Part shown: positions 11,626 to 63,801 of the stretch, in pieces | Layout of the letters: every line of letters starts with the position of its first letter | Position numbering within the stretch: the first letter of the stretch is position 1 | NCBI GenBank assembly: GCA_006503475.1 | Contig: RSEH01000036.1 | Span: 1-64,000 of the forward strand | DNA length: 64,000 bases | Direction: 5' to 3' | From: Stentor roeselii | Taxonomy: Eukaryota > Ciliophora > Heterotrichea > Heterotrichida > Stentoridae | Program-made: the position numbers and the translations under genes | The notes under the pieces: model-generated | Seen by the model: only the letters and a program-made list of their open reading frames with translations | Databases searched by the model: none | What the model was told of the DNA's origin: nothing

Positions 11626-12420
11626 ATAATAATGATTTAATAAAGAATTTCTGCACAGCATTAAATCTAGTGCTTGAATAAAAATATCAGTAATAATTTC
11701 ATTTCATCATTCCTGAAAGTGAATTATTTAAGTTAATATTATTAATTAGTAATACTTGTAAATGTATCAGAATTTTGAAACAATTTTTGGTAAATTTAGA
11801 TTTATGGCTTATCTTCTTTGATAGTCTTTTAATATTACTTCAGTCATTTTATAAGGGGATGTAAAAGAGTGCTATTTCTGGATTCTAAAGGTACTCTTAT
11901 TGTTTTTGTAGTCTTATCAAATTCTGTAGTTGTTCACAATTGACTATTAAAGTTAATTAATAAGGCTGATATAAGAAAAAAATTGTTTTTATTCAAACAG
12001 TGTCACAATTTATGTAGGCTTTGGAAGATCTTTAGTAATATTTCTTATGATTTCTTCTTCTCGAAAACAGAGTGATAAAAGCTGAATTGTCAGAAAGATC
12101 AGCACAATTAAATATTTTGAATGTTTGCAGGCTAAATTTTTAATAAAAACCAAGAAAAGCAAAGAAGGCTTAGAACTAAGATCAAGTTCACGTTTAACGG
12201 TATATGGATTATTATTTTATTTGAATTAATTTTCAATTTACTTAAATAGTAAAGGAATGACCCTATACAGATAATTTTTATTTAGTTAGAGTTTCGAAAA
12301 TAACAGCTCACATAAACTTTGTAGTGTATAAGCTAGTATAATGAAAAACCTGAATGAATTAAAACCTTGAATTTTCTCAAACCATTTCAACCTTTAAAAT
12401 TTATATCAATCTAAAAAAAG
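11626..12420. other. AT-rich intergenic sequence
   Basis: About 0.8 kb between the RING gene and the convergent p62-like gene. It would hold both 3' flanks. No reading frame, repeat or RNA gene is supported. Confidence 0.6.
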
Positions 12421-13194
12421 TTAAAATCCTATCAGAGCAGATAAAGTTCTGCTAACACTTAAATTCGAGCTTAAAAGTAATGATTTAATTTTTTCAATAT
12501 CTTTGAAGCCTAGTTTCTGAATTCTTTTTATTGACTCACTAAGTCCAACATGCTTCAAAATGTCTTTTTTAATGACTTTATGCTGATGACCATTCGATTT
12601 ATAGCAAGAGTCACACATCTTATAGTTTTCACATATATCACATTCATTAATTACCGATTTTAGTTGAATATAACAAAAAGAACAGTGAAATTTCAACGGC
12701 ATCCTTTTCACAGCGAAATTTGGTAAAATATTAATAGGCTCTTGTTCAGCGATTTTAAACAAAGTTGCGAGTTTCTTTCGTGACTCTAAATTTTTAAGAT
12801 TAATCGAACTGTTGTTAAATTCAAAGCTTATCGGAACCTCAGCAAGACTTTTCAGATATTTTCCAGATTTCTCTTCAAAAACCTCAGACTCATGAGTAAT
12901 ATTTAAAGATAAATCCACGTAGTGAGTAACGATTTTCTCATTTTCAGCACTTTCCCTAATATCCAGTTCCTTGACTTCAAAAGTTCCTCTATTTTCTCTG
13001 TACTTCTTAATACATTCTTCATATTCAGTCTGATTATCAACAAGTCTAGAGTTATTTTTTTCCGCAGTGCCAAACCAAAGTTCAATATTAAAACACCCAA
13101 CAACATTTTCAATTTTTTCTTTAAAAATCCAAAGTTCCTTGCTGATTTTCATCTGAATCTTAATATCATAAAAGAAAACCACGACAATATCCAT
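12421..13194 (-). CDS. p62/NBR1-like autophagy receptor (PB1-ZZ-UBA)
   Basis: The 257-residue protein has the compact layout of p62/SQSTM1 and NBR1. Residues 2-80 look like a PB1 domain: NIELWFGTAEKNN and VDNQTEYEECIKKYREN line up with NBR1's beta strands and GEYEEALK helix. Residues 171-205 are a ZZ zinc finger (C171, C174, C185, C188, C194, C197, H203, H205). Residues 218-257 resemble a UBA domain (RIQKLGFKDIEKIKSLL, then LSALIGF). Such proteins bind ubiquitinated cargo, self-assemble through PB1 and tether cargo to Atg8. HYVDLSL (91-97) is a possible Atg8-interacting motif but is unproven. The FW domain of NBR1 is absent. It lies 28 nt downstream of the OSCP stop on the same strand. Domain calls are from motif spacing; ZZ is the surest. 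Confidence 0.75.
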   Translation of the reverse strand: MDIVVVFFYDIKIQMKISKELWIFKEKIENVVGCFNIELWFGTAEKNNSRLVDNQTEYEECIKKYRENRGTFEVKELDIRESAENEKIVTHYVDLSLNITHESEVFEEKSGKYLKSLAEVPISFEFNNSSINLKNLESRKKLATLFKIAEQEPINILPNFAVKRMPLKFHCSFCYIQLKSVINECDICENYKMCDSCYKSNGHQHKVIKKDILKHVGLSESIKRIQKLGFKDIEKIKSLLLSSNLSVSRTLSALIGF

Positions 13195-13222
13195 TTATTG
13201 ATTCTTCTAATCAACCTATAAA

Positions 13223-13792: not shown

Positions 13793-13798
13793 TTACTA

Positions 13799-14584: not shown

Positions 14585-14588
14585 ATTA

Positions 14589-15011: not shown

Positions 15012-15278
15012 ATTATTTTATGATCTTCAGAAATCTTAGTAGATATGAAAATTAAGCAGGTTCGAGTATTCATTTATGCAGGATAACAAATTTCCTGATT
15101 AAATTCCTAAAAGCTCTCTCTTCACAACAATAAAAAAAACCACCCGAAAATCCCGATTCTCTTAAAATAATTAAAAAATCCCATCTTCATCAAATCCCTA
15201 AAATTTCTTCATTCCGTTAAAATCTGTGTCTTTCTCCAACTTTCAAGCAAAAACGGTTAAGTTTCCAAATTTCCATAA

Positions 15279-16526: not shown

Positions 16527-16540
16527 TTAATAGGTAAGAT

Positions 16541-28265: not shown

Positions 28266-30857
28266 ATGGCATTTTCCGGTATCAAAAACCTCTTCGGTGG
28301 CAAGTCCGACGCAAGCAAAAAAGAAAAAGCTTTCGAAACCTCTGAAATCTCAGACGACTTCAAATTCCTAAAAATCATCGAAATGCAGTACCTCGGAATT
28401 CCAGCAAACGCGACTCCAACTCTGACCTTCGACCGAGTCCAAGGCTTGTTGGCTTTAGGAACAATGGACGGGAACCTAAAGATGTAAGTCAAATTCAGCT
28501 TTGGCAAGGAGGGCATCGAAATAATGTTAGTGGGAAACGACACGAATCCAGTAGAAATGCTTGTTTTTCTCACCAACAAAGGAGGACTCGTGTCTTATAG
28601 TGGACTGAGCCGGTATCTTACCTTGTGGAGTCTGAAAACTTTGTCATTTGACTTGATTCCCATCAGTTTTCGGTAAGTCTCAGACAGAGTGACTAAACTT
28701 TACTATGACCACGGCGAGTACCTCTTGATCGGCACTGATCAAGGCTCGCTCAGGGTGTTAAATTTAAATGAAAAAAGAATGACTTGCTTTGAACTTAAAC
28801 CACAAAGTCTTGGAGTCGACTCTGAGCCTTTAGTGGATTTGTTGCCTTGTCCTACAAACCCTGCGAGGCTTGTTTTGGCTTTTGAGACTCAGGGGGTCGT
28901 TGTTTGGGACCTTCCGGATCATAAAGTCACTCATAAAATTACTTCTGAATCGCCTGTCCATGTCACGGCCTGGGCACCTGATGGACTCTCACTTGCTATT
29001 GGAAGACGTGATGGAAGTATTCTTGTATATAAAGTGGAAAAACATGCTAAAGTTCAGAAGTCTTTTAGACCTGATTTGGATTCTGGAAATCTTAATGTTT
29101 CTTCTGTTAGTGCAATTTATTGGCTTGAGTCTGGAATGCTTGTGCTTGGCGGGAAAGCGTTTGGTACCAATCAGCAGCTTACTTTTATCAATGGACTTGA
29201 ATTGAATGAGTCTAAGGGAATCAGAGTACCCGAAAAATTCATTCCAATGCAGCTTCTCCTAACGCCTCTACCAGAGAGTCCAGAAACCTTTCTAGTAATG
29301 TCAGAAGACGAAGTCTTAAAGTTTTCATTACCAGACAGTCGACTAGAGTACATAAACGAGTTATTCGGCGGCAGTGAGGTTTTAACAAGTCAATTTTACA
29401 CAATAAGTAACCACGGAGAAGAGCTTGATTCAGTGATAAAAACTTTAGCAAAAATCAGAAAAACCAGCATTTTAAACGGAGGAGTCACCGACGACAGCGA
29501 GGTCTACGGAATGCTGATCACAGGCCACTCCGAAGGAATCGTGCGATTCTGGAACGTCGGAAACAGTCGAATCGCTCACGTTTTCAACCTCTGCTTATTA
29601 TCCGGAGTCAAAAGCAAGTTTCAATCAAACACCGTCTTTTTCGACATCTCCGAGACTGACCCTTGCAAAGTGTCTTGTTTAGAACTTCAAAGCTTTCGCT
29701 TGTTCATCGGCTTTGACATGGGAAAAGTAGGGGTTTGGGAAATTCAGGAAGAATTAACACTAGTCAACGTTTACAAGTACCACAAAGTCCCGGTCCTTGT
29801 CGTTAAAGTCATTCATCCTTTTGTCGTCTCTGGAGACATGGACGGACAAGTCACTTTTTTTAACTGCGAAACAAGTGACGTGATTTTTGAAGAAAGTGAA
29901 ATTAAAAAAACGCAGAAACTTACAGTCACAACAGTTGAAGTCATTAATCGACTTGTGTATATCGGGTATTCAAATGGGACTTTACAGATCTTCAACCCTT
30001 TCTCAGCAGTTTTCCTGCCAAGTCCTAAACTGAGCAAGGTGGACTTGAAATCAGAAGTTCCGAAAAGGTCAGAAACTGGAATTTTCAAGCTTCTTTTCAC
30101 TTCTCTTCAAAGCCAGTCAGTGATTCTTAGTTATGAGAGAAGTATGTTTCACTGTAACTTGTCTGACTTTTCAGCGAAGGCCTCTCAATGTTGGACATGT
30201 CCCATGATTTCATGCAATTTAGCGCATATTAGAAGTGAAGTTTATGTTTATGTCCTTCATGCTGATTGTGTTATTTCAATGCTTGATTTTTTCTCGTTAG
30301 CTCGTCTGTGGAAAAGCAGTCTGCCCGTGCCTTTACAGTGATTTTTAAGTAGACTCAACTTTCGAGAGTTCCACTTGGCCCTTGACGGCCACTTCATTAT
30401 CAATACTTCAGGAAAAAACTTGATTGCTGGGTGGATCACTTTGCATGATGAGGATGACATGGCTAGGCCTTCGCTTTGGAAAGAAATTCAAGAGACACCC
30501 AAACCAGACAAAAAAAGAAAAAGTTTCTTGGGCTTCAAGTTTTCTTCTGAAATTAACTACTCCGCTCTTTGTAAGACTTATGCAGTCGACCGCCCTGGTA
30601 ATAAGTTCAGAACTGATGACGACGACGATGAACCTCCTGAAGAAATCAAAGACCTCAAAGTTGAGAGTCTTCAAAGAGAAACCATGACTGCCAAAAACGC
30701 TATTCAGGAAACTCTACAGAAAGTCAGTGAAAGAGGAGATAAAATCAAGTCACTTGAAGATAAAATGAAAGAAATGAGTGAAAAATCGAAAAACTTCGCA
30801 ATGATGGCTGCAGAAATCGCCAAAAAGGAAAAAAACAAGAAGTGGTGGCAGGTTTAG
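28266..30857 (+). CDS. Tomosyn/Lgl-family protein with R-SNARE tail, three introns
   Basis: Four exons (28266-28483, 28499-28672, 28688-30337, 30353-30857) joined over three 15-nt introns encode 848 residues. Most of the protein is made of WD40-type repeats (HVTAWAPDGLSLAIGRRDGS, GMLITGHSEGIVRFWNVG, LVYIGYSNGTLQIFN), forming the double beta-propeller of the Lgl/Sro7/tomosyn family. The last 60 residues are an R-SNARE-like helix (TLQKVSERGDKIKSLEDKMK, then EKSKNFAMMAAEIAKKEKNK) ending in KKWWQV, as in tomosyn. Tomosyn occupies syntaxin/SNAP25 complexes and restrains exocytosis. In a ciliate a role in vesicle or pigment-granule secretion is plausible but inferred. The length is shorter than mammalian tomosyn (about 1100). 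Confidence 0.9.
28484..28498 (+). other. 15-nt intron 1 of the tomosyn-like gene
   Basis: GTAAGTCAAATTCAG. It splits the codon AT|C and would end the protein if kept. Confidence 0.93.
28673..28687 (+). other. 15-nt intron 2 of the tomosyn-like gene
   Basis: GTAAGTCTCAGACAG. Removal joins SFR to VTKLYYDHGEYL and keeps the WD40 register. Confidence 0.92.
30338..30352 (+). other. 15-nt intron 3 of the tomosyn-like gene
   Basis: GTGATTTTTAAGTAG, with GTGA rather than GTAA at the donor. Removal joins the propeller to LQLNFREFHLALDG and the SNARE tail. Confidence 0.93.
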
Positions 30858-47171: not shown

Positions 47172-48299
47172 TCACTCTAAATTTTTCGATTTGATGTAAT
47201 TTTTTATTATCAGGTAAGACCTTCTCAAGTTTGGGTGATTTAACAAAATTGACTCAGATCGATTCAACTTTTGGTAAATTTCTTTTATGAAGTTATCTTC
47301 AATTGGATAGTCGAGAAGTAAAGCAGATCCAATAATTTTAGTGTCTAAAGCTGATATGGATTCAGAATGTAAATGCCCTATGTTGATATTCTTGCGATTT
47401 TCAGTGTAATAATTGAATATTTCTCTAGGAAAGTTCGATGATCGAATGTTTTTCAAAGCTGGGTTAGCGACGTAAGATCCAATGCAATTTGCGATTTGTT
47501 TTAAATTGATCAAATTGATTTTTTTTAGAATTTTGGTTTCTACACCTTGAATCAAATTATAAGAAATCCTCATAATAAACATGTTGCTAATCATTCTGCT
47601 CAATTCATCAATATCAGCCTGGTCGATATTCTTGAGAAATCTTGCAAAAAGAATATGAGCGAATTCCAATTCTTCATTATCATCGACAATCTTCGTGATG
47701 ATACTGACTAAAAGTGGAGGTTTTAACTCGTGAATATTGATCAAAATCACATTTTTTAAATAATCTCTACTTTCAGCTGACCCAGCACGAGCCATGAATA
47801 AAGATTTTAAAGTAAGAGCAGCTGTGACAATATTCAATTCATTTTTCTTTAAATATTCAAGCAGCTTTTTATCGAGAAGGGTCCAAAGTTCAGAGTTTTT
47901 CGTTTGAGAATAAGCGAAACCAGTGATAACATGAGGAATATCATTAATATCCAACAAAGGATGAGTCACATTCAAGAACTGATCTTCTAAATGGCTCCAA
48001 ATTGGATGTCTTTGAATAGATAAATAAGAAATATTGACTATAAGATTGTTTACCAGCTTCGGGCTTATCTTATTCAGATGAGGGATCAAAGAGTTCAAAC
48101 TCATTTTTATATTCGAATCATTCGACCAATAAATAATTGTGTTTGATAACTTTGCATTTGTGTAAAGTTCTCTGTAGTTTTGTATCAGGTTCGCCATATC
48201 TTTTACTGAAGGGTTTATTTGTGTGATCGGCTTTAGAGATTCTGTGAATGAGAAAGATTTGGAAAATACTGAAAAGACTCTTTGAAATCTTGCAAGCAT
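47172..48299 (-). CDS. Predicted mitochondrial helical-repeat protein
   Basis: A 375-residue protein. The N terminus (MLARFQRVFSVFSKSFSFTE) is basic, rich in Ser and Phe and free of acids for 18 residues, as in a mitochondrial targeting peptide. The rest is a chain of short helices without Cys clusters or membrane spans (LIPHLNKISPKLVNNLIVNI, HVITGFAYSQTKNSELWTLL). This resembles the helical-repeat RNA-binding proteins of mitochondria (FASTK/HPR-like). No RAP domain or PPR consensus is visible, so the fold class is an inference. The start codon is 18 nt from that of the divergent TPR gene. Confidence 0.6.
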   Translation of the reverse strand: MLARFQRVFSVFSKSFSFTESLKPITQINPSVKDMANLIQNYRELYTNAKLSNTIIYWSNDSNIKMSLNSLIPHLNKISPKLVNNLIVNISYLSIQRHPIWSHLEDQFLNVTHPLLDINDIPHVITGFAYSQTKNSELWTLLDKKLLEYLKKNELNIVTAALTLKSLFMARAGSAESRDYLKNVILINIHELKPPLLVSIITKIVDDNEELEFAHILFARFLKNIDQADIDELSRMISNMFIMRISYNLIQGVETKILKKINLINLKQIANCIGSYVANPALKNIRSSNFPREIFNYYTENRKNINIGHLHSESISALDTKIIGSALLLDYPIEDNFIKEIYQKLNRSESILLNHPNLRRSYLIIKNYIKSKNLE

Positions 48300-48317
48300 T
48301 TTTTTTATATTACGTTA

Positions 48318-49736
48318 ATGAAGGATTTGAATACGGATAAAGAACCTCTTGCGACTGATATAATCAAAATTAATCAGATTGCTTTAGAGGAGGTTAAAGG
48401 TTACAGGTTTAAAAAAGCTATTGGATTATTGCATCGGGCTGAAGAGTTGATTATGGGACGTGAAGGGCTTTTGGAACTTTCTTGTATTACTTGGAATAAT
48501 CTTGCTATGGTTTATAAGAAAATTGGGAATTTGAATCTTGCTATGAAATATTTTTATCTTTGTGTTAAAAATAGTCGAGGGTTTAAAGATTCTCTTAGTG
48601 AAGCTACTGTTTATTTGAACCTTGCCTCAATACACTCAGAATTAAAGCAAGTCGATATTTCTACAACATTTGTAACAAAAGCCTTAGAAATCAGTGACTC
48701 CTTCACAGAAAAAAACTTAAAAGCAAAAATGACCCAAATTATCGGAAACAGTATAAAAGCTTCAAATCTTCAAATTCAATCAAAACACTGGCTTGCAGTC
48801 CAAGAGTTCAAAAAAACCTGGGAACAATCAGAAGACCTTCTAGGAACATCTCATGAATTAACTAAAAACTTAAAAAAAAAATTCGAGACACTTGTTCAAA
48901 ACGATGACCAAAACCACTTCAAAATATCAAAAAGTCTAACAAAAAATCACCTTTCTTCAAAAAATTACAGAAAAACTCCATCTTGTAGACCTGTAAGACT
49001 CGAAAGTTTACCTAAAATCGAAACAAGAAAAAAGTCTTCAATGAGTTTCACAGAAAAGCAGAAAACTTCAGATTTTTACTCAGATTCCCTTTACCTTAAT
49101 AAAGATCTCTTGAAAATTTCAAGAAAAGTAAAAGTTCAGAGTTTTCGGAAGGAAAAAATCGAGAATTTAAATCAATTGATTGAAGAGGTTGAAAAAAATC
49201 TTTCGAATTTTCAGAGAAATAAGGAAAAAACAGCTGAAGTCAGTGAAAGGTTTCAGAAATCTTCAAAGGCTGCGAGCACACAAGTGAATATTTTGAAAAA
49301 TAATGAAAATTTCAGCTTAAGGCATCGAATAAATCGAGCGAATTTGGTTAAAACAAGTGAAAATACGGGATATGAGCGGAAAAGTAGAACTTCGACGCAA
49401 CTTACTCGAGTACTGAAGGAAAGTAACCAAAGTGAACTTATTCCTGTTCCAATAAAAAGAAAAATTAAGCTTTTTAGAGAAAAAGGACTAGGAACTATTT
49501 TTGAATCAAGATCTGAAGACTTTCACGATGTCGCTATTTTCATTCAAACTTTTTGGAGAATGTTTCATCAGAAAAAAAAATACCTCCGTACTAAAAAAGC
49601 CGCTGTTACTATTCAAAAGAATATAAGAAAATTTTTCGTCAGAAGGATTTTCGAAAACATACTAAAAGCCGTTATTTTTATTCAAAGTGTATTCAGAGGA
49701 CACAGAGTTCGAAAATTGATAAAATATTTCTATTAA
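48318..49736 (+). CDS. TPR and IQ-motif protein
   Basis: The 472-residue protein starts at ATG 48318 (upstream codons in this frame offer only TTG). Residues 15-190 contain tetratricopeptide repeats (KKAIGLLHRAEELIMGREGL, TWNNLAMVYKKIGNLNLAMK, ATVYLNLASIHSELKQ). A basic Ser/Lys-rich linker follows. The last 75 residues hold three IQ motifs (AIFIQTFWRMFHQKKKYLR, AAVTIQKNIRKFFVRRIF, AVIFIQSVFRGHRVRKLI), which bind calmodulin or centrin. Ciliates have many centrins in the cortex, and Stentor contraction relies on centrin-like fibres, so a cortical adaptor role is attractive but inferred. Confidence 0.82.
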   Translation: MKDLNTDKEPLATDIIKINQIALEEVKGYRFKKAIGLLHRAEELIMGREGLLELSCITWNNLAMVYKKIGNLNLAMKYFYLCVKNSRGFKDSLSEATVYLNLASIHSELKQVDISTTFVTKALEISDSFTEKNLKAKMTQIIGNSIKASNLQIQSKHWLAVQEFKKTWEQSEDLLGTSHELTKNLKKKFETLVQNDDQNHFKISKSLTKNHLSSKNYRKTPSCRPVRLESLPKIETRKKSSMSFTEKQKTSDFYSDSLYLNKDLLKISRKVKVQSFRKEKIENLNQLIEEVEKNLSNFQRNKEKTAEVSERFQKSSKAASTQVNILKNNENFSLRHRINRANLVKTSENTGYERKSRTSTQLTRVLKESNQSELIPVPIKRKIKLFREKGLGTIFESRSEDFHDVAIFIQTFWRMFHQKKKYLRTKKAAVTIQKNIRKFFVRRIFENILKAVIFIQSVFRGHRVRKLIKYFY

Positions 49737-49822
49737 AAATCTTTAAAAAAAATCCAAAAATTAAAACCTCATCTTCTTCAAATTTCCCAAAAAAAACTCC
49801 AACCAAAACCCTTCAATTAATT

Positions 49823-50572
49823 TTAAACTTTACCACTTTTCACCTCCTCAACCCTCTCAGGGTTAAGATACTGATTCATGGGTACAAACTCAGTCTGTCC
49901 AAACGAAATTTCCAAGTCATCAGGGAAAATTTTCCTTAGCGTCCAGTTAAACATGGCAATCGAGCTGAAAGGGCCTTGGACTCTTCCAGCAGGGTCTCTG
50001 TAGTACCAGACAGGCTTATACGGCCCGAGTCCCAACGGCAGATAAATTTTGTCATCATCGCCGCCGTCAAGGCCGATTCGAATCATCGCATTAGCGAAAG
50101 GGTTTCCTTTTTGAACGTACTCCAAAAGGAGTTTTTTTTCAAAAACAGGCACCATGCAGACTGTTTCTTCATTTTTTGAACCTTGCTCTGGACGCAGACT
50201 CGCTTTTGGTGTCATTGCTGATGGTTGAACTTCTGGCTTGAATGACGGCGGCTTTTTAGGGGTTTTCGCAGATCGTTTTTTAGGAGATTCTAAATAATCT
50301 TCTCGCTTTTTTGGACTTGATCGACTGTTTTCGGCTTCTGGGAAGGGAGTTTGGGTTGAATGATACCCGCAGGGGTCTGATGATGTGTGAAGATAGAGGG
50401 AAAGGGCTTCGTCTGGCACGATACCTAAAAATAAGTTATTTCGACTGAATTTTGACAGAATTATTTCACGAGAATAACGATTTGAAGCCAAATTTACAGT
50501 AGTTTGGACCCTGTGAAAAGTGTCCATTGAATCACCTGTCAATAGTGGACGAGGCTTGGGTCGAGTGGACAT
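49823..50572 (-). CDS. GYF-domain protein
   Basis: A 249-residue protein. The C-terminal residues about 185-240 form a GYF domain: VWYYRDPAGRVQGPFSSIAM, FNWTLRKIFPDDLEIS. This carries the W-x-Y-x-D, GPF-x-x-x-M-x-x-W and F-x-x-D-L signature of the Smy2/GIGYF class, which binds proline-rich ligands and takes part in mRNA translation control or ER-Golgi traffic. The N-terminal half is Ser/Pro/Lys-rich and disordered. The gene starts 9 nt after the Sec24 stop on the same strand. Yeast Smy2 interacts genetically with COPII mutants, so the adjacency is suggestive, but a shared role is only a possibility. Confidence 0.85.
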   Translation of the reverse strand: MSTRPKPRPLLTGDSMDTFHRVQTTVNLASNRYSREIILSKFSRNNLFLGIVPDEALSLYLHTSSDPCGYHSTQTPFPEAENSRSSPKKREDYLESPKKRSAKTPKKPPSFKPEVQPSAMTPKASLRPEQGSKNEETVCMVPVFEKKLLLEYVQKGNPFANAMIRIGLDGGDDDKIYLPLGLGPYKPVWYYRDPAGRVQGPFSSIAMFNWTLRKIFPDDLEISFGQTEFVPMNQYLNPERVEEVKSGKV

Positions 50573-50581
50573 ATTATTATT

Positions 50582-52978: not shown

Positions 52979-53171
52979 TATTAAGTTAAGAATAAAGAGA
53001 GATTATTTCAACTAAAAATCAAATAATGATCCTGGAATTTACATGAAATCCAAAAAATCATAAAAAATCTAATTCAAAAATGTTTCATCTTCAACTACTC
53101 CAATCAAAAATTCACAAAAAAACTAAAAATTCCAAATAAATCACCCATAATCTTTACAATTATAACCGAGC

Positions 53172-54479
53172 TTAAATCTCTTCTTCCTGTTCTTCAGACT
53201 CCTGCAATATAGGATACAAAGTTTTCAACTTATCATTATCTTTCAGAATCTTCTCCTGCAAGTCTTCTCCAAGATAAATAAACCTCTTAACAGGAAACCT
53301 CGAATGATGAAGAAAAGCGATAAGTTGAACAAGTTCCTGATTCATCTTATGTATAGATTCATAAGTCGATTTAGCAGTAGGCTCATCATCAGACATAAGT
53401 TTAAGCATAAAATCTTCCCGAACATGAACAGTTTTCAATATTTTCACAACAATAGCTCTAACCTTAAACAAATTCAAACAAGTAGCAAGTAGACCATCAA
53501 CACTTTCATAAGTTTTTGGGACTCCTTCCATATAACCACTTGGAATTTTTAATTCTTTTTTTAACCTTTCAAGAGTTTCAATACTTTTTTTAAAGACCAC
53601 ATCAATATCATCATATTCCTTAGAGCACATCAACTCTTCAACCTGTGAACAAGAGTAACAATCAGGATCAGCCTGAAAGTGAAAAATTCCTTTAATGACA
53701 AGTCCATCAATCTCAGACTGACTCCAGTCGACATAAATTTGCCTTCTCTGCATATTTTTCCCAGATGATGTCTTAACCTGTCGATTTTTTAATTCCTGAG
53801 AAGCGATGACTCTTTTACCTTTATTCGCAGTGTTGGTCCTTTTGCCATTTCCCAAGTCAAAGTAACAATAATACCTGTCGTTTTTATCTAAAACGAACTT
53901 CATAAGTCCTGGGTCTTTCCTGAACTGCCCCATCAGGTCCTTCCAGCTTTGATGATTTTGACTGTCCTGATAAAGCATGTCTGAAATCAAGCTGCTGTTG
54001 AACTTCTTGCTTGACTTGGACTTCACCTTCTTGCCTTCGAAACCTCGCTTTAGTCGAGAGGACTTCTTTTTAATCATTTGCATCAAACGGTCCTCTGCTG
54101 GACTTTCTGGCTTTAATTTGACTGTGTTGCTTGTGGGTGCAAGTCTTGGAAACTCTTGGATTGTGAATGTGTCTAAAGGCACATTTTTCAACAGTTTTGA
54201 ACCTTTGCGGCTTTCATCAAAACTCGAACGAACTATCGGAGTTGATGTGCGGGGCTTTATTGAGTCTTCGGAAAGATGGGAAAGACTTGGAGAGGCTTTT
54301 AAGGATTGCTGGATTGTCTGTTGGAGACTCTCGAGTTTTTGCTTGTAGAACTTTAGCTTTGAGGAGAGTTGGATGATTTCGGATTCTTTTTGATGTAGCT
54401 TTTCTTGGAAGTTTAGAAAGGAAAAGTCTGTTTGGGTCGGCTGGGAAACTTTCTGTATGTTTGATTGAGGAGATGTCAT
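53172..54479 (-). CDS. Hypothetical protein with N-terminal coiled coil
   Basis: A 435-residue protein. A coiled coil at about 22-62 (EKLHQKESEIIQLSSKLKFY) is followed by a Ser/Pro/Lys-rich linker and a globular C-terminal half. The half contains YYCYFDLGNGKR, YVDWSQSEIDGLVIKGIFHF and several helices (DDIDVVFKKSIETLERLKKE), ending in a Glu-rich tail. I recognise no family. The two Cys around DCYSCSQ do not form a clear zinc site. A cytoskeletal role would be a guess. The gene is upstream of Sec24 on the same strand and divergent from SERCA. Confidence 0.72.
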   Translation of the reverse strand: MTSPQSNIQKVSQPTQTDFSFLNFQEKLHQKESEIIQLSSKLKFYKQKLESLQQTIQQSLKASPSLSHLSEDSIKPRTSTPIVRSSFDESRKGSKLLKNVPLDTFTIQEFPRLAPTSNTVKLKPESPAEDRLMQMIKKKSSRLKRGFEGKKVKSKSSKKFNSSLISDMLYQDSQNHQSWKDLMGQFRKDPGLMKFVLDKNDRYYCYFDLGNGKRTNTANKGKRVIASQELKNRQVKTSSGKNMQRRQIYVDWSQSEIDGLVIKGIFHFQADPDCYSCSQVEELMCSKEYDDIDVVFKKSIETLERLKKELKIPSGYMEGVPKTYESVDGLLATCLNLFKVRAIVVKILKTVHVREDFMLKLMSDDEPTAKSTYESIHKMNQELVQLIAFLHHSRFPVKRFIYLGEDLQEKILKDNDKLKTLYPILQESEEQEEEI

Positions 54480-54806
54480 TTTTAGGATAAGTGAATATAA
54501 AATTGATGACGTTTGATATAAATAAGGAAGAGTTTTAAAATTTTTTCTTGAGTAAATCTCAGAAGTTCCTCAAACCGCGCAACTTTTAATCTCCAAACAA
54601 ATTCTAAAATATTTAAACTTTCATAATTTTTCAGTCTAACACCCTGCAAACCCTTATCTCCTCATGCACTTCCAAACCCCTTCAAACCCCCTTCAAACCC
54701 TTTCAAACCCTTTCAAACCCCTTCAAACCCCTTCAAACCCCTTCAAACCCCTCCGATGATTCTCCCCCTGCCACGTATCATTAGAAATTGATGGCCCAGT
54801 ATATAA
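54480..54806. promoter_or_regulatory. Bidirectional 5' region with a 10-bp repeat array
   Basis: The 327 bases between the start codons of the hypothetical gene (minus) and the SERCA pump (plus) must hold both promoters. The part nearest SERCA is C/A-rich and includes the 10-bp tandem array at 54671-54752. TATAAA at 54802-54807 is too close to the ATG to be a promoter element. Confidence 0.5.
54671..54752. repeat. 10-bp tandem array (CTTCAAACCC)n
   Basis: Eight consecutive 10-base units of the form (C/T)TTCAAACCC, with small variation only in the first units. The array ends 54 bases before the SERCA start codon. The G strand reads GGGTTTGAAG, telomere-like in flavour but not the telomere unit. 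Confidence 0.92.
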
Positions 54807-57782
54807 ATGTGGCACGAGCTGGACGAGAGCGAAGTACTCAAACGACAAGAAACCTCACTCAAAACCGGTTTAACCTCTTCAGAAGTATCAAAGCGCCGTC
54901 AAACTCACGGATGGAACGAGTTAGAAAAGCCAGAAGGCAAAAGTCTAATCGCTCTGATTCTAGAACAGTTCGAAGACCTGATGGTGATAATTCTTCTAGT
55001 GGCAGCAGTGGTCTCGACAGTGATTGCCATTCTTGACAGTCATGAAGGCATTTTAGGATTTGTGGAGCCTATCGTTATTCTTCTTATTCTTATCGCTAAT
55101 GCGACTGTTGGAGTCTGGCAAGAGTCAAACGCTGAAGCAGCTTTGGAAGCATTGAAAGACCTGCAGTCCGAACATGCCAGGGTGTTAAGAGATGGAGAGT
55201 GGAGCACTGTGCTTTCGAAAGAACTCGTCCCTGGCGATGTGATTGAATTGACGATGGGAAACCGATCACCTGCCGATGTTAGAGTCGTGCAGTTGTTGAC
55301 TCCTAGCTTGAAAGTTGATCAGTCTTCTTTAACTGGAGAAACTGAACCAATTTCGAAAAGTACTAAAAAGAATAAGGGAGAGGCCTTGGAATTTAAGACG
55401 AATATTGTTTTTAGTAGCTCGAATATTGCAAGTGGGTCTGGAATTGCGGTGGTTGTTGAAACTGGAATGAAAACTATGATTGGAGGAATTCAGAAATTGG
55501 TGGAAAAAGGGGATGAGGAAGAGGAATCTACACCGTTACAGAAGAAACTTGATGAGTTTGGGAATAAGTTGGCTTGGACTATATTTTTCATTTGTTTACT
55601 TGTATGGGTTATGAATTATAAAAATTTCTTTGATGAAATACATGGATCTCCATTCAGAGGAGCAATCTACTACTTCAAAATCGCAGTAGCCCTAGCAGTA
55701 GCAGCAGTTCCAGAAGGTCTTCCAGCAGTGATAACAACTTGCCTTGCCCTAGGAACTCGAAGAATGGCCAAAAGAAACGCGATAGTAATGAGACTTCCAA
55801 GTGTAGAGACTCTTGGTTGCACAACAATAATCTGCAGCGATAAAACAGGAACATTGACTACAAACGAAATGACAGTAACAACATTCTTAACAACAGACGA
55901 ATCCGGTTCGAACCTGCGCAGTTTCAAAGTAACCGGCCATTCATTCGACCCCGAAGGGGAAGTCCTAGGTTTAGAGCCAAAGCATTTCGACGAGGTCCTG
56001 AAACAATTCGCTCTGACAGCCGACCTCTGCAACAGTTCTTCACTCGAAAAAAAAGAAGGCGGAAGATACAAAGTAACAGGAATGGCAACAGAAGCAGCTC
56101 TAAGAGTTTTAATTGAAAAGTTAAAAAAAGCTGATAAAAAGGGCTTTTTTGATTTCTCTTCTTACAAGAAAATAGTAAATCTTGAATTTTCCTCTTCCAG
56201 GAAGTCCATGAGTGTGATCTGCTCAGGAAAAGCAGGAAATGTGCTTTATGTGAAAGGAGCTCCTGAAAAGATCATAGACCGTGCCTCAAGTGTCTTAGTG
56301 AATGAAAAGTCTCAGAACATGACAGGTCAAACAAAGCAGAAAGTTTTAGAAGCTTGTCAGAAGTTAAGTGAAGAAGGCCTCAGATGTCTTGCCTTGGCCT
56401 ACAAAACGAATTTATCTGAATTAAACGACTACAACGGCCCTAGTCACAAAGCTCACAGTTTACTTGAAAATCATGAAAACTTCGAAGGAATTGAATCAGG
56501 CCTTACATTTTTAGGAGTCGCAGCAATGAGAGACCCTCCAAGACCTGAAGTCCCTGACGCTATTCGTCTTTGCAAGCAGGCAGGAATCAAGGTCTTCATG
56601 ATCACCGGCGATAATCAGAAGACTGCAGAGGCCATCGCAGGTCAAGTCAAGATCATGGACGGGAAGACTTTAAGTTTGACTGGCCCTGAACTAGACAAGC
56701 TTTCTGATGACTCTTTGAAGGCGAAACTCGCTTCAGCTGAATCTTGTGTCTTTAGTCGAACGACTCCTGAGAATAAATATCGTCTTGTTAACCTTTTGAA
56801 AAGTTTGAACGAAGTCGTCGCCATGACTGGCGACGGAGTCAACGACGCCCCTGCCTTGAAAGCGGCAAGTATCGGAGTCGCTATGGGAATAACTGGCACT
56901 GAAGTCGCTAAAAATGCCTCAGATATGGTCCTGGCTGATGATAAGTTCTCAACAATAGTAGCAGCAGTGGAGGAAGGCCGAAGTATTTACAACAACACAA
57001 AAGCTTTTATAAGGTACTTGATTTCTTCTAATATCGGAGAAGTCGTCAGCATATTTTTAACGGCGATGCTTGGACTTCCTGAAGGTTTCACTTCTGTGCA
57101 GCTTTTGTGGGTTAATCTTGTGACTGACGGACCTCCTGCAACTGCTTTAGGGTTTAACCCGCCTGATCTGGACATTATGAAGACACCTCCACGGAAAAAT
57201 GATGAGCAGTTGATTAACGGGTGGGTTTACTTCAGGTACTTCGTGATCGGCATTTATGTCGGAGCGGCGACTGTTGGAATCTTTGTTTATTGGTATTTGT
57301 TCTTCGAGTCACCTGATGGACATCCTCTTATTTCTTATGCACAGTTGTCGAACTGGTCCGAATGTCCTTCTTGGAAAGGTTTTTCACTCGCTAACTGGGG
57401 AGGACTTAACTTGGAAAAAAACCCTTGTTTGTACTTCACTGAAGGGAAAGTCAAGGCAAGTACCTTGAGTCTTTCTGTACTGGTCACTATTGAGATGTTC
57501 AATGCTTTCAATGCACTTTCAGAAGATAACTCTTTACTTCAGATGCCGCCTTGGATCAACCCTTGGCTCTTGGTCGCTACAGCTTCTTCAATGATTTTAC
57601 ATTGCATGATCCTTTATGTGCCTTTTTTCAATGGAATCTTCGGAATTCAGCCTTTGGATCAGAGCGAGTGGGTCTTAGTCCTCGCTTTTTCCGCACCTGT
57701 CACAGTCATTGATGAAGTTCTTAAACTCGTCAGCAGGACACTCAATTCTAATCGAATCGCTGCAAGCAAAAAGACAAATTAG
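54807..57782 (+). CDS. SERCA-type Ca2+-transporting P-type ATPase
   Basis: The 991-residue protein fits class IIA pumps end to end. It has the cytosolic start (TSSEVSKRRQTHGWNELEKP), actuator motif SSLTGETEP, PEGLPAVITTCLALGTRRMA with the Ca2+-binding EGLPA, phosphorylation site CSDKTGTLTTNEM (about residue 350), nucleotide site KGAPE, MITGDN, and MTGDGVNDAPALKAASIGVA. Membrane helices 5-10 follow, with NIGEVVSIFLTAMLGLPEG and NLVTDGPPATALGFNPPD carrying the other Ca2+ ligands. The length is typical of SERCA (about 1000), and no C-terminal calmodulin-binding tail of plasma-membrane pumps is present. It pumps Ca2+ into ER or cortical alveolar stores, important for Ca2+-driven contraction and ciliary reversal. 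Confidence 0.96.
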   Translation: MWHELDESEVLKRQETSLKTGLTSSEVSKRRQTHGWNELEKPEGKSLIALILEQFEDLMVIILLVAAVVSTVIAILDSHEGILGFVEPIVILLILIANATVGVWQESNAEAALEALKDLQSEHARVLRDGEWSTVLSKELVPGDVIELTMGNRSPADVRVVQLLTPSLKVDQSSLTGETEPISKSTKKNKGEALEFKTNIVFSSSNIASGSGIAVVVETGMKTMIGGIQKLVEKGDEEEESTPLQKKLDEFGNKLAWTIFFICLLVWVMNYKNFFDEIHGSPFRGAIYYFKIAVALAVAAVPEGLPAVITTCLALGTRRMAKRNAIVMRLPSVETLGCTTIICSDKTGTLTTNEMTVTTFLTTDESGSNLRSFKVTGHSFDPEGEVLGLEPKHFDEVLKQFALTADLCNSSSLEKKEGGRYKVTGMATEAALRVLIEKLKKADKKGFFDFSSYKKIVNLEFSSSRKSMSVICSGKAGNVLYVKGAPEKIIDRASSVLVNEKSQNMTGQTKQKVLEACQKLSEEGLRCLALAYKTNLSELNDYNGPSHKAHSLLENHENFEGIESGLTFLGVAAMRDPPRPEVPDAIRLCKQAGIKVFMITGDNQKTAEAIAGQVKIMDGKTLSLTGPELDKLSDDSLKAKLASAESCVFSRTTPENKYRLVNLLKSLNEVVAMTGDGVNDAPALKAASIGVAMGITGTEVAKNASDMVLADDKFSTIVAAVEEGRSIYNNTKAFIRYLISSNIGEVVSIFLTAMLGLPEGFTSVQLLWVNLVTDGPPATALGFNPPDLDIMKTPPRKNDEQLINGWVYFRYFVIGIYVGAATVGIFVYWYLFFESPDGHPLISYAQLSNWSECPSWKGFSLANWGGLNLEKNPCLYFTEGKVKASTLSLSVLVTIEMFNAFNALSEDNSLLQMPPWINPWLLVATASSMILHCMILYVPFFNGIFGIQPLDQSEWVLVLAFSAPVTVIDEVLKLVSRTLNSNRIAASKKTN

Positions 57783-57826
57783 TTAGTTAGTAGAAGTTAA
57801 ACTGATAAGAATTTTTTTAAATATAA

Positions 57827-60028
57827 ATGACTGAACCTGTTAGAAACATCTCTGATGATTTTATTATTGTCTCTGTCCCGCCCAAAGGCGTCAATTATCA
57901 GGCTCCGGTCTTTAAAAGACTGAAAATTTTGCAAGAAAGTGAAAAAAACTCTTGGCTTGGAATTGATATTAATTCTATTGGGAAAACTGGAACTAAAGCT
58001 AGCTTTTTACCTAGTTATTTGATTGCTTTTGAGAAGAAAATGAAGAAGTTTTTGAGGAAGGGGTTTGGGGAAGATTCTCGACCACCTTTGGTTTGTTTTC
58101 AACCAGTCACAGAAGAGCAGCTCTGCAAAGAAGGACCTCCTTCAAACATGTACTCAAAAGGTTGTTTTTCCCAAAACAAAGACCTCCTCTACCGAGTCTT
58201 TAAAACCGACTCAAGGCTCGTTCGATCAATATTAGAATCATCAGGTTTTTCATCAACTGACTCTCACGATTGGAACGTTTTATGGGTCGGTTCAAGTGCG
58301 CAGATGTATTTATACGAAGGTCTAAACGAATACCAAAGAATAAATCATTTCCCCAACTCATACGAATTGACTCGCAAGGACAAGATGCATTTGAATATTT
58401 CAAACATGATAAGTTTATACGGCAGAGATGATTATGACTTTGTTCCAGATACTTTTTTACTTCCTGATCAATTTAATGAATTTTATGCACAGTATATGAA
58501 AAACAGATCAAATATGTGGATTCATAAACCTTGTGGGTCGTCTCAGGGAAGAGGCATCTTTTTGGTCAACTCTCCTTCGGATATACCTCAAGGAGAACCT
58601 TGTATTATTTCCAAGTATATTCCTAACCCTCTTCTTATCAATGAACTTAAATTTGATGTTAGGATTTATGTGCTAGTCAGCTCGTTTGATCCTCTTAGGG
58701 TTTATGTTTATGATGAAGGATTGGCGAGATTTGCAAGTGAAAAATACAACCCAGTAAACAAATCCAACCGTTTTAGCCACCTAACAAACTACAGCGTAAA
58801 CAAGAAAAACGAAAAATTCATCCAAAACCAAGACTGGCGTCAAGACAACATCGGTCACAAATGGAGTCTAAACGCCTTAAACAAGCACCTCGAGTCAATA
58901 GGAGTAGACACAACCCTTCTCTGGTTAAAAATATACGACCTGATAATAAAAAGCCTGATATCAATTGAGCCAATCGTATTAGACTCTCTAAGAAACTTAG
59001 TAGTCCACCGCAACAACTGTTTCGACTTATTCGGTTTCGACGTCTTAATCGATTCAGACCTAAAGCCCTGGCTCTTAGAAGTAAACCTCAGCCCATCGCT
59101 GGCAACAGACTCTCCTCTAGACCTTCACATAAAATCATCTCTAATCTCAGACACCTTCAACCTAATCGGAATCCGAGGCTTCGACCGTAAAAAAGAATCG
59201 GCAAACAAAGTACGAGCACGAATAAAAGCACGTCAAATGCAATTAGACCGTGAACGAAAAAAGTTAGGAGAAAGTTTCATGTCTTTAAACGACTCCAGAT
59301 CGAAATCTTCAGAAATTTTTCGAGATACTTTAGAAGAATACGAACATAAAGGGTCATTTTTAAGGATTTACCCTTCGAAAGGTTGTGATCATTATGATAG
59401 GTTTTTTTCAGGACTTCGGCCGAATAATAAACTTTTGTATCGGTTCTTGTTTTATGATATCTGGGATGAAGGGATTTCTTTACAGCCTTCGATAAAGGAA
59501 AATGTTAAAAGTAAAGCTGATGAAAGGCCTTCTATGTTTGAAGATCTACTTTTTGAGTATGTCACAAGACTTGTCCATGCTTTGAAAACTCTTCCAGAGG
59601 ACAGCTTGAAACAGGACTGGAAAATTAACATAGAAAATTTTGTAAGTCACTCGTATTGGAACTCTTCAGTTGCCAAAGCTTCTGGAAATCTTTGGCAAAC
59701 TCTTGAAGGTCGATTGAATGAGATGAAAAAAAGAGCTGATGAAAAAAAAGCAGAAGGGTTTAGAGGTTTAAGTGCTGTTAGAATTGAAGGAAATTTAAAA
59801 GCTGCTGCTAAGGCAGGACAGGTTGAATTGGTTAATACTTTGTTTGTTGATGAAAAAATAGGGATTTTGTCTGATATTATCAAGTGGCTTTCAATTAAAA
59901 CTCAAAAAAGAAGCTCGTATGTCTCGGTTCGAAAGTATCGTGAAGAGGAAAGCTCGGTTGAAAATCATGCACTTTATTCTTCTTGTTCACCTATTCCAGG
60001 AAATAAACCTGGACATCGAAAAAAGTAA
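57827..60028 (+). CDS. Tubulin tyrosine ligase-like polyglutamylase (TTLL)
   Basis: A 733-residue protein with a TTL domain at about 150-460. Key motifs are WIHKPCGSSQGRGIFLVNS (ATP-grasp lysine and glycine loop), CIISKYIPNPLLIN, KFDVRIYVLVSSFDPLRVYV, NRFSHLTNYSVNKKN, NNCFDLFGFDVLIDSDLKPW and LLEVNLSPSLATDSPLD (Mg2+-binding E-x-N). FDLFGFDVLID with the SLA-x-D-SPLD end points to the TTLL4/5/6 polyglutamylase group. These add glutamate chains to tubulin of cilia and cortical microtubules. The C-terminal 270 residues are helical and basic and may bind microtubules. It starts 44 nt after the SERCA stop. The coding strand shows four alternating G/T and A/C blocks. Confidence 0.93.
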   Translation: MTEPVRNISDDFIIVSVPPKGVNYQAPVFKRLKILQESEKNSWLGIDINSIGKTGTKASFLPSYLIAFEKKMKKFLRKGFGEDSRPPLVCFQPVTEEQLCKEGPPSNMYSKGCFSQNKDLLYRVFKTDSRLVRSILESSGFSSTDSHDWNVLWVGSSAQMYLYEGLNEYQRINHFPNSYELTRKDKMHLNISNMISLYGRDDYDFVPDTFLLPDQFNEFYAQYMKNRSNMWIHKPCGSSQGRGIFLVNSPSDIPQGEPCIISKYIPNPLLINELKFDVRIYVLVSSFDPLRVYVYDEGLARFASEKYNPVNKSNRFSHLTNYSVNKKNEKFIQNQDWRQDNIGHKWSLNALNKHLESIGVDTTLLWLKIYDLIIKSLISIEPIVLDSLRNLVVHRNNCFDLFGFDVLIDSDLKPWLLEVNLSPSLATDSPLDLHIKSSLISDTFNLIGIRGFDRKKESANKVRARIKARQMQLDRERKKLGESFMSLNDSRSKSSEIFRDTLEEYEHKGSFLRIYPSKGCDHYDRFFSGLRPNNKLLYRFLFYDIWDEGISLQPSIKENVKSKADERPSMFEDLLFEYVTRLVHALKTLPEDSLKQDWKINIENFVSHSYWNSSVAKASGNLWQTLEGRLNEMKKRADEKKAEGFRGLSAVRIEGNLKAAAKAGQVELVNTLFVDEKIGILSDIIKWLSIKTQKRSSYVSVRKYREEESSVENHALYSSCSPIPGNKPGHRKK

Positions 60029-60153
60029 GGGTTATATAGGGCTAAAACTATTAACGCGGATACTTTGCATCAATTGAATAACCAGAATTATATGGTTAAA
60101 GTTGGAAGATATTCCATCAGCACTTCTTAAGTTAAATAATTATTTAATTACTC

Positions 60154-62022: not shown

Positions 62023-62031
62023 TTAACAATA

Positions 62032-63285
62032 TTAGTCAAAAAGGGTTTTATTTAAAAATTCAAGGAATTCAAGACTCTTTAACATCGTAACTGAACAAAT
62101 CTCAACATTTTGTAGTTTCTTCATTTTTTTAAAGTCCTTTTCGTGCTCTTCTTGTAAAATTTTCACAGAAATTTGCCCAAGGGTCAGAAAAATCCGGTTT
62201 TTTTGTAAGAAGTTATTAAAAATTAAGTCAACTTTGATACTTAAGTTCTTTATCATCATTGATTCGCTGATGATAACTTCTTCAAATTGTTCAAGTTTAT
62301 CTCTTCTTTCGCAGAGTATTTTTTTTACCAGGTTTGTAGGAGTTGTTATGTTTAATGATTTGTTGATCGTCAACTGGGAGAGATTCCAGTTTAATTCGCA
62401 GTTGCTGAAGCTTAAATTCTGCTCGATGATATTTCTTACGAGACTTCTTTTCCCTGAATCTTTCATTTCACTTATTGAAGCGATTTTGAAGTTGGATTTA
62501 GTGAATTGTGATGAAGTGTCTAATACTTTTAGTAAGAATTCTGAGTCTTTTTCACTTATAGTGATGCAGGTTTTGTTTGGAATGCCTTTTATTGTTGATA
62601 CTATTGACTCCTCGTCTGATATCGACTCTCGGAAACGAAGGACTATTCGGTCTTGGAACATTGAAAAGTAAAGACGTGGTAAAACTAGTGAGTTTAAGTT
62701 GAACACGAGATGGGAAAAAGTGGACTTTAGAGGCTGGGATAAGTGGTAGGAGTAGATTTCGTGGTCGTTTTGGCTGTACACGTTTATGTCGAATTGGGAG
62801 AAGTTTCGGTTGTAGCTGATTTGTGAAATGCAGTAGACTCCGGAGATATTTGAACAGATTTTTACCAACCCATCATCCTCCTTCTCCTCTTCAACAAAAT
62901 GCTTTCTCTCTACTTTAACATGATTCAACCTATCTAAACTGAAAGCAAGTCCATCCCTGACCTCAGTATCAATTCTAATCCTTTCAGCTGAAATCTGCAG
63001 CAAAGAGTCAAGTTTTTTGCTAAGTTTCAATATTTTCGAGAACCTTGCCCTCATCGAGTATTCATCCTGATACTTGTTACTAAGCGAAATCAAGTCCCTG
63101 ATAAGTCCAAGTTTCAAGCTATACAAGTTGAGGTTTTCCAGATGTTCCAAACCATTCGTCATCAACTTCGAGTCTTTATTTTTTTTGATCCCTGAGCTTA
63201 TCGGGTTCCGAATCTTCAGAAGCGGCTGAATTTTCTTCACTTCGATTTTTTTACCGAGAATGGCTTCACTCTGGACTTTTTGCAT
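62032..63285 (-). CDS. Hypothetical protein
   Basis: A 417-residue protein, basic at the N terminus, with a helical stretch at 45-110 (LKLGLIRDLISLSNKYQDEY, LKLSKKLDSLLQISAERI). A beta-rich middle follows (VYCISQISYNRNFSQFDINV, EIYSYHLSQPL, SLVLPRLYFSMFQDRIVLRF), which repeats the exposed-strand pattern of C2-like or propeller-like folds. The C terminus is helical. No family, membrane helix or catalytic motif is recognised. The start codon is only 9 nt from that of the divergent membrane-protein gene. Strand composition flips sharply at about 62860, inside this frame. Confidence 0.72.
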   Translation of the reverse strand: MQKVQSEAILGKKIEVKKIQPLLKIRNPISSGIKKNKDSKLMTNGLEHLENLNLYSLKLGLIRDLISLSNKYQDEYSMRARFSKILKLSKKLDSLLQISAERIRIDTEVRDGLAFSLDRLNHVKVERKHFVEEEKEDDGLVKICSNISGVYCISQISYNRNFSQFDINVYSQNDHEIYSYHLSQPLKSTFSHLVFNLNSLVLPRLYFSMFQDRIVLRFRESISDEESIVSTIKGIPNKTCITISEKDSEFLLKVLDTSSQFTKSNFKIASISEMKDSGKRSLVRNIIEQNLSFSNCELNWNLSQLTINKSLNITTPTNLVKKILCERRDKLEQFEEVIISESMMIKNLSIKVDLIFNNFLQKNRIFLTLGQISVKILQEEHEKDFKKMKKLQNVEICSVTMLKSLEFLEFLNKTLFD

Positions 63286-63294
63286 GTAATAAAT

Positions 63295-63801
63295 ATGAAC
63301 TGCTGCTTGTCTATCAATCGATACGACCCTGTTACTTCAAATGTCAGAAAATTAACTCGGATTTTAAAGGTTTTAGGCTTGGTGCTTATTGTTTTTGCGT
63401 TTTTTACTCTGATTTTTAATTTGATTTCTGCAGTTTTAATGATTTTCACCTGGTTTTTAATTTGTTTTGTGTTGTTGACTAGAAATTGGCAGGCTTGTGT
63501 AGGGATTATTGTTGTTTTGACTGGAGATTTTATTTGGGCTGTTTTGATTTTTTTACATGTTTTGATTGGAGAAAGAGGAGATTTGGAAAGAGTTGGGATT
63601 AGACCTTTACTTTTTTTGGTTAAATTGCCTTTGATTTTACTGATTTTGTTTTATACTTTTTTGATGTATCGGGAACTTAAGGCCTTGGCTATTGAATCTG
63701 TTGAGTCTGTCGCTGTTTTTTTCAACTATGGGGCGAATCTGACACAGGATGAGGACGGACAACAAACTAATCAGTTTCCAGGACCTTCTTATAAAATTTA
63801 A
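63295..63801 (+). CDS. Small membrane protein with four hydrophobic helices
   Basis: A 168-residue protein from ATG 63295 (upstream codons in the frame offer only TTG). Four hydrophobic segments follow a short N terminus: LKVLGLVLIVFAFFTLIFNL, VLMIFTWFLICFVLLT, ACVGIIVVLTGDFIWAVLIF and LLFLVKLPLILLILFYTFLM. The tail is polar (NLTQDEDGQQTNQFPGPSYK). MNCC at the start could be palmitoylated. A tetraspan layout of this size occurs in MARVEL-like proteins and in many unrelated families, so no function is assigned. The region is strongly G/T-rich. Confidence 0.75.
   Translation: MNCCLSINRYDPVTSNVRKLTRILKVLGLVLIVFAFFTLIFNLISAVLMIFTWFLICFVLLTRNWQACVGIIVVLTGDFIWAVLIFLHVLIGERGDLERVGIRPLLFLVKLPLILLILFYTFLMYRELKALAIESVESVAVFFNYGANLTQDEDGQQTNQFPGPSYKI

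Follow-up and report, generated by a model that had tools for sequence, protein, structure and literature searches.

Why should the plus strand of a gene-dense chromosome alternate every few hundred bases, even within single exons, between G/T-rich and A/C-rich composition, and why should nearly all of the sharpest changes run the same way? The question is raised by the 64,000-nucleotide stretch of the ciliate Stentor roeselii examined here (the window, bases 1-64000 of contig C264), which belongs to a macronuclear assembly of 44.39 Mb in 522 contigs. Tracts whose plus strand is G/T-rich are designated K, and those whose plus strand is A/C-rich are designated M. Out of the 44.39 Mb, we analysed 264 kb (the window and 200 kb of contig C511) together with 18 loci on 18 other contigs, which were picked up as homology matches, many of them tubulin-tyrosine-ligase-like (TTLL) genes; loci L002 (the window itself), L006, L035, L037, L038 and L041 were excluded for overlap. 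Open reading frames (ORFs) were defined mechanically and not as gene models, from stop to stop in the standard code, with at least 150 amino acids and greedy selection of non-overlapping frames, such that the start of an ORF may precede the ATG. Only synonymous third bases were scored, after subtraction of codon-group averages and omission of ATA codons.

At these synonymous sites, K and M alternate in blocks about 300 nt long. In the 37 ORFs of the window, the choice of T with G as against C with A is positively coupled at distances of 3 to 300 nt (z of 4.9 to 14.5 against within-ORF synonymous shuffles) and the coupling turns negative at 401-800 nt (z of -11.6 and -10.3); the autocorrelation of the T/C choice is about 0.16, decreases to 0.04 at 201-300 nt and is zero thereafter. 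Contig C511 (115 ORFs, 51,019 sites) shows the identical coupling pattern with larger z values, and no coupling was found in a control of 32 ORFs from one 50-kb stretch of Escherichia coli K-12 (z of -1.4 to 1.3). Our results confirm a preliminary description of this DNA, which had proposed from hand counts that synonymous codons follow the state of blocks a few hundred bases long, and the variance of the skew exceeds that of codon-shuffled genes, the comparison which that description had suggested. Raw GC and TA skews over 300 nt are only weakly correlated (0.17, window from 12.4 kb on); amino acids mask a pattern that synonymous sites expose.

The changes from one block to the next have a direction. 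With D defined as the difference of adjacent 120-nt means, in-gene steps in the window and C511 run from K to M rather than from M to K in ratios of 22:0 at D >= 1.0, 37:8 at >= 0.9, 49:22 at >= 0.8 and 79:52 at >= 0.7 (21:0 and 37:9 at the two highest thresholds under an alternative normalisation), while the weak steps are mostly reversed (105:116 at >= 0.6 and 155:225 at >= 0.5), as expected if the returns are gradual. The window alone gives 5:0, 7:1, 10:4 and 15:11 at 1.0, 0.9, 0.8 and 0.7, and the 18 loci on other contigs give 11:1 at D >= 1.0 and 14:2 at D >= 0.9. A second scoring of all 20 sequences yielded 65:13 at its top threshold, 94:56 at the next and 117:139 at the one after, down to 183:241. 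The skewness of local increments is -0.30 (z of -3.0) at 120 nt, a width picked after trying 60, 90, 120, 180, 240 and 360 nt (z of -1.8, -2.6, -3.0, -2.3, -1.1 and +1.3), and reaches -0.356 (z of -3.85) when the 18 loci are pooled with the rest. It is nearly the same on plus-strand genes (-0.315, z of -2.0) and minus-strand genes (-0.288, z of -2.2), and 40 simulations of random polarity had a skew s.d. of 0.11 and a K-to-M excess that never went above 9 (D >= 1.0) or 8 (D >= 0.9). The sawtooth described earlier, in which sharp flips go from G/T to A/C in the plus direction on genes of both orientations and the return is gradual, is thus real, and neither translation nor gene strand explains it, since its polarity is fixed in plus-strand terms on both gene strands.

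Across genes, the autocorrelation is positive to about 300 nt, has its minimum at about 500-600 nt and approaches zero by about 950 nt (C511) or 1200 nt (window), with long-lag swings of up to 0.14 and up to 0.3 (near 2.8 kb), respectively; no periodic or nucleosome-scale spacing was seen in either. A positive and then negative autocorrelation that does not return periodically indicates isolated odd pulses instead of a wave with a period. Fitting by simulation, in which 241 of 14,497 draws were accepted, gave a mean tract of 325 nt per side (10-90%: 223-431), a spacing of 1001 nt (578-2376) and a zone s.d. of 74 nt (21-137), the last two being weakly informed and little narrower than their priors. 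Around 60 called steps, the log-odds shift is 1.8-2.25 within 150 nt, 1.1-1.9 at 150-300 nt and 0.54-0.65 at 300-500 nt, values that are inflated because these steps were selected for strength. The 79 K-to-M steps with D >= 0.7 are localised to a median of 60 nt, and 18 of them to 30 nt or less. Simulated exact steps with linear flanks have a median span of 16-18 nt, 53-59% of steps within 18 nt and a skew near -1.2, as against an observed median span of 48 nt, 10% of 49 steps within 18 nt and a skew of -0.30. Other accepted parameter sets narrow this contrast and are compatible with small spreads, but the steps are probably zones and not single-base edges.

The chemistry of the pattern is restricted. 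Across the K/M state, fourfold sites range from 0.45 to 0.94 in T/(T+C) and from 0.14 to 0.52 in G/(G+A), and the pyrimidine share covers just 0.52-0.63; being nearly constant, it implies that the changes are mostly transitions. Over the 16 trinucleotide contexts, the response of C/T sites agrees with the complement of the response of A/G sites (r of 0.915, against 0.44 for same-strand pairing), and a single strand-specific transition process, swapped between the flanks, therefore suffices. The strongest responses at C/T sites are those of ACG, CCG, ACA and TCG, CpG responding most, and sites preceded by GC respond least (slopes of 0.3-1.2), with the exception of GCG at 2.5 on one view. Separately, the GCT context is reversed, with slopes of -1.08 and -1.25 on two views of the synonymous positions in 186 ORFs (20 sequences). 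CpG methylation was rejected as the cause of the CpG effect: the C5 DNA methyltransferase profile PF00145 had no match genome-wide, although it was positive in 10 of 14 control genomes. Loss of uracil repair was also set aside, there being one UDG-family match in the genome.

Comparison of paralogs indicates what carries the pattern. In 177 pairs with 20-60% amino acid identity (synonymous identity 0.41-0.44), the mean correlation of profiles is 0.07-0.10 (s.e. 0.04-0.065); it is 0.37 in seven pairs with 60-80% identity and 0.71 in the two closest. These pairs, 189 in total with 3 outside the identity bins, have shared members and are not independent. Block positions look like a property of the individual DNA copy and not the encoded protein, with a turnover about as fast as synonymous divergence. 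A near transition-only, context-dependent pattern that diverged paralogs do not share is a copy-specific imprint on DNA, not the result of codon or protein selection. One pair of tandem paralogs, c511_165150/166424 (79% amino acid identity, synonymous identity 0.56), has a profile correlation of -0.32, and its differences are strand-coordinated: those from T/G to C/A against the reverse number 19:3 in codons 100-159 and 0:6 in codons 240-279, and are balanced elsewhere, with 9:8 in codons 0-99 and 9:9 in codons 160-239.

The claim that the blocks ignore gene limits did not survive. Read in the sense strand, ORFs are A/C-rich at their 5' ends and G/T-rich at their 3' ends, and the mean plus-strand change over ORF boundaries is a K-to-M drop in all three gene orientations, although the divergent one (n=15) lies within two standard errors of zero, and the standard errors of the divergent and convergent means are large. 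A drop below -0.5 is seen at 26% of the tandem (n=57), 27% of the divergent (n=15) and 9% of the convergent (n=22) boundaries, versus 5.5% of in-gene points, and rises above 0.5 at 2%, 7% and 0%, versus 4.1%; 21 of the 57 tandem boundaries have a gap of zero or less, and some of them separate exons of one gene split by an intron. Introns were considered as a cause and rejected, since the 12 usable ones among 18 candidates (15-16 nt, GTA..AG) in the 264 kb have the same sign (mean D of -0.15, -0.12, -0.11 and 0.00 at widths of 60-240 nt) and are too few; the 18 are a lower bound, as only stop-interrupted introns are detected. Transcription-start strand bias makes the sense strand G/T-rich just downstream of the start, and was discarded as a cause because the A/C-rich 5' ends have the wrong sign for it.

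About half of our confidence goes to a reading in which mutation has imprinted the pattern over a long time, through the exposure of single strands around fixed germline zones that are recurrently broken or opened. In each zone, DNA would be repeatedly broken or opened in a nucleus whose DNA is inherited; trimming in the 5'-to-3' direction would leave single-stranded 3' tails, of the plus strand on the left and of the minus strand on the right; and the exposed strand would accrue strand-specific transitions (C to T, possibly A to G) over a few hundred bases in evolutionary time. The plus strand would thereby become G/T-rich on the left and A/C-rich on the right, with a step at the zone and a bias fading outward, and protein selection would confine the imprint mainly to synonymous sites. 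The odd pulses of fixed polarity, their length, the near transition-only change, its context and the copy-specific positions are observed here. From these we infer that the exposure stems from a resected double-strand break, in most probability a meiotic one, in the germline micronucleus, as a point with the plus strand bared on its left and the minus strand on its right has the geometry of such a break. The polarity of composition (22:0, 37:8, and 14:2 on the 18 other loci) matches damage distributed in this manner, and the flanks, of about 325 nt per side with log-odds decaying to 500 nt, fall within the range of resection (hundreds of bases to 2 kb). The genome has one match to PF04406 (TP6A_N; 3.9e-18), which we take to be a domain of Spo11 and topoisomerase VI-A, and two matches to the Rad51 family PF08423, all assigned at family level, their identity as Spo11, Rad51 and Dmc1 being putative. 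Of the causes suggested earlier, repair tracts have support from the polarity, from the length of the flanks and from the context dependence and near transition-only nature of the change. A bolder extension, which we hold to be possible but short of probable, is that the somatic genome preserves a fossil map of zones of germline breakage, roughly one per 1 kb, with break-overhang damage and not replication errors as the main source of transitions; such zones would have been stable enough to push synonymous sites towards equilibrium, yet would have turned over between paralogs.

Several observations weigh against this explanation. To our knowledge, about one zone per 1 kb at such a bias far exceeds any meiotic break map. 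Third-site GC is flat near the steps (0.345-0.373 within 1 kb versus 0.32 beyond), so pure C-to-T damage is not demonstrated, and equilibrium data cannot separate C>T alone from C>T with A>G. AT content is unchanged at the steps, and we claim no step motif: GGCA/GCC and other words are mildly enriched, but CCG and ACG are up at M-to-K steps too, and word enrichment at steps may be an artefact of step calling. Of the 241 accepted simulations (median increment skew -0.65), 93% have a stronger skew than the -0.30 observed, and the likelihood ratios of the observed steps lie below simulated ones (12.8 versus 14.9-18.0), which means that the model is too simple or that some of the variation lacks polarity. 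Lastly, in the available portion of the human study PMC7615360, resection extends 1-2 kb per side and breaks show all substitution types, whereas the flanks here are about 0.3 kb and transversions are not evident.

The composition evidence as a whole would be satisfied by less than a meiotic break. It requires only exposure of strands from a point, and another fixed, point-like process that exposes one strand per side (topoisomerase or nuclease sites, stalled-fork gaps, transient opening) is the alternative that fares best, although we judge it unlikely. It would have to act in an inherited nucleus, or else in a macronucleus inherited asexually for a very long time; a macronuclear process is normally not inherited, and the long open frames attest to long-term selection. 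Observations in other ciliates count in its favour: the accessible text on Blepharisma counts 46,705 potential alternative telomere-addition sites, most of them in one read (PMC9942806), and that on Halteria ascribes a GC skew at the 3' subtelomeric end of the coding strand to deamination-associated mutation (PMC7858049).

Replication starts, which the preliminary description had also offered, are a little less likely still. If the leading-strand template is single-stranded near a start zone, exposure would again be of the plus strand on the left and the minus strand on the right, so that the polarity is possible, and the preference for ORF boundaries would suit origins. The scale is the part that fits poorly: the bias is gone by about 1 kb (autocorrelation near zero by about 950-1200 nt) and the fitted spacing is about 1 kb, unlike forks and origin skews that run for kilobases, and the usual origin skew, with a G/T-rich leading strand, is opposite in sign.

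We consider it improbable that the steps are excision sites of micronucleus-limited segments (internal eliminated sequences, IESs) with micronuclear mutation gradients around each segment. Exact excision would make sharp steps, such as the 18 of 79 localised to 30 nt or less, and the density suits: Blepharisma, also a heterotrich, combines some 40,000 IESs, 70% of them intragenic, with a 41 Mb somatic genome, according to the parts of PMC9942856 and PMC9942806 available; about three quarters of them are TA-bound (PMC9942856, same portion). Here TA is not enriched at 111 steps (weight of 31.3 versus 33.5 expected, s.d. 3.1), although four simulations with steps exactly on TA gave z of 7.6-9.4 (with 178-198 steps called there, the power at 111 being somewhat lower), nor in a second test of 155 steps (45.6 versus 46.6 expected). 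Exact steps with linear flanks also predict narrow spans and a strong skew that we do not see, a contrast that weakens in broader parameter sets. The idea of old macronuclear DNA junctions is accordingly unsupported in its main form, that of exact TA-bounded junctions, and the steps fit zones better; non-TA or inexact excision junctions would possibly be compatible with them. A search for a PiggyBac-type transposase (DDE_Tnp_1_7, PF13843) had no match in the genome, but matched in no control genome either. No near-identical, micronuclear copy of 49700-60100 was found in the assembly, in which a DNA search brought up 16 matches, at 64-83% identity.

Selection at the level of codons, of mRNA structure or of translation might be suspected since the signal sits at synonymous sites of ORFs, whose sense strand is A/C-rich at the 5' end and G/T-rich at the 3' end, but it is very improbable given a plus-strand polarity that is unchanged on genes of both strands, drops that span ORF boundaries, the near absence of shared profiles in the 177 diverged pairs and the complement-context agreement of 0.915. 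Finally, segments inverted in a scrambled micronuclear genome with uniform strand bias would yield alternating strand blocks inside exons, but equally sharp in both directions, and the ratios of 22:0 (D >= 1.0) and 37:8 (D >= 0.9) make this scarcely credible.

Individual steps of the window can be placed as follows, with the log-likelihood ratio (LLR) of the step, its 80% span and D for 120-nt means. A K flank at 48282..48617, whose left limit is approximate and set at the ORF start, ends at step 48617 (LLR 21.5, span 12 nt, D -1.23), and the M flank to its right covers 48618..48950, a limit approximated from the mean tract length; hand counts in this TPR gene (G20:C6 in 48421-48480, G6:C13 in 48661-48720) had been exact. 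The TTLL gene at 57827-60028 holds two steps in one frame. Its first K flank, 57827..58099 (left limit approximate, at the ORF start), ends at 58099 (LLR 10.5, span 45 nt, D -1.16) and is followed by an M flank, 58100..58429, with return to K by 58429 (D 0.70); the second K flank, 58430..58738, ends at 58738 (LLR 19.9, span 30 nt, D -1.21) and is followed by an M flank, 58739..59347, with return at 59347 (D 0.87). The counts reported for this frame (58021-58080 G21:C3, 58141-58200 G7:C16 and 58741-58800 G5:C17) were reproduced to the base, as were those for the minus-strand gene (62761-62820 G20:C7, 62881-62940 G2:C18), in which the K flank 62728..62863 ends at the strongest step of the window (62863, LLR 14.6, span 27 nt, D -1.50), before an M flank at 62864..63200 with an approximate right limit. 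The by-eye flips at about 17000, 29230 and 55645 have called counterparts at 16966, 29219 and 55652. A K flank at 28823..29216, beginning at a return at 28823, ends at step 29216 (LLR 14.3, span 15 nt, D -0.96), with the M flank 29217..29550 (right limit approximate) beyond it; another, at 55320..55649 (left limit approximate), ends at step 55649 (LLR 11.1, span 36 nt, D -1.08), with the M flank 55650..55980 (right limit approximate). Additional K-to-M steps lie at 15806 (D -0.99), 14080 (D -0.83), 27910 (D -0.83) and 56810 (D -0.82). The TTLL family is very large, with at least 105 matches to its TTL domain (PF03133) genome-wide.

The standard code leaves long frames open, and the genes are tightly packed: among neighbouring ORFs with gaps of at most 300 nt, the median gap is 15 nt in tandem, 31 nt in divergent and 86 nt in convergent pairs. 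Tiny introns of 15-16 nt are present, for instance 15-nt GTA...AG introns at 37264-37278 and other sites, in genes with standard stop codons, features that presumably resemble those of tiny-intron heterotrichs. Two-exon tandem gene copies at 174673-178254 of C511 (locus L026, C511:170001-180000) are 93% and 88% identical in amino acids and have an identical 15-nt intron. The left end of the window, at 1-134, carries telomere repeats, CCCTAACA, which are also those of Blepharisma (PMC9942806, in part). Three telomere repeats matched 220 times forward and 327 times in reverse genome-wide, overlapping matches being counted.

If the break reading is true, germline break zones, their flank lengths and the chemistry of damage could be mapped from a single assembly, in a group whose mating is not always easy to bring about (for Stentor, as stated in the available part of PMC9942806), and breaks would be a dominant force on codon choice. 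With another strand-exposing source too, a gene-scale bias of fixed direction and strict context rule would confound work on codon usage and molecular evolution in this group.

How does the sawtooth compare with known systems? Skews of replication origins, bacteria and mitochondria are alike in that G/T versus A/C asymmetry arises from unequal single-strand exposure, but they extend over kilobases to megabases instead of hundreds of bases, and the usual jump at origins has the opposite sign. Strand-coordinated mutation clusters are known in resected DNA of yeast and tumours, with the same switch from a C side to a G side at the break; these are one-off cellular events, unlike an imprint left across the genome by evolution. 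An imprint of meiotic breaks would have a central zone of about 100 nt without asymmetry; our fit gives a weakly informed zone s.d. of 21-137 nt, and small spreads may fit as well. Among ciliates, IES junctions of Blepharisma (PMC9942856, in part) have a similar density and are mostly intragenic, but differ in that TA is not enriched at the steps here and a zone fits better. Halteria (PMC7858049) and Nyctotherus (PMC2633312, where a purine skew covers about the first 130 nt) have macronuclear strand bias near fixed nanochromosome ends in the portions available, a bias tied to chromosome ends and the coding strand, whereas ours is found inside long chromosomes and genes independently of gene strand. 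The accessible sections of these two papers and of PMC5182062 describe skewed composition at the ends of chromosomes or within a breakage motif and no intragenic sawtooth, and our search of the literature on strand bias and skew, largely outside subscription papers, found no intragenic pattern of such kind. A further parallel is with human meiotic break hotspots where, in the part of PMC7615360 consulted, single-stranded DNA is the forward strand on the left and the reverse strand on the right, with mutations of C and A (C>N, A>N) on the forward side and of G and T (G>N, T>N) opposite. Odd symmetry, polarity and single-stranded flanks are thus alike, and the elevated C>T at CpG and deaminase-like preferences there recall the CpG-strong context rule here; the human signal consists of rare variants around PRDM9 sites, and that of Stentor of fixed composition, with what looks like one zone in about 1 kb. 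Damage that is strand-asymmetric about fixed points is of a known kind; here it would be visible as fixed composition.

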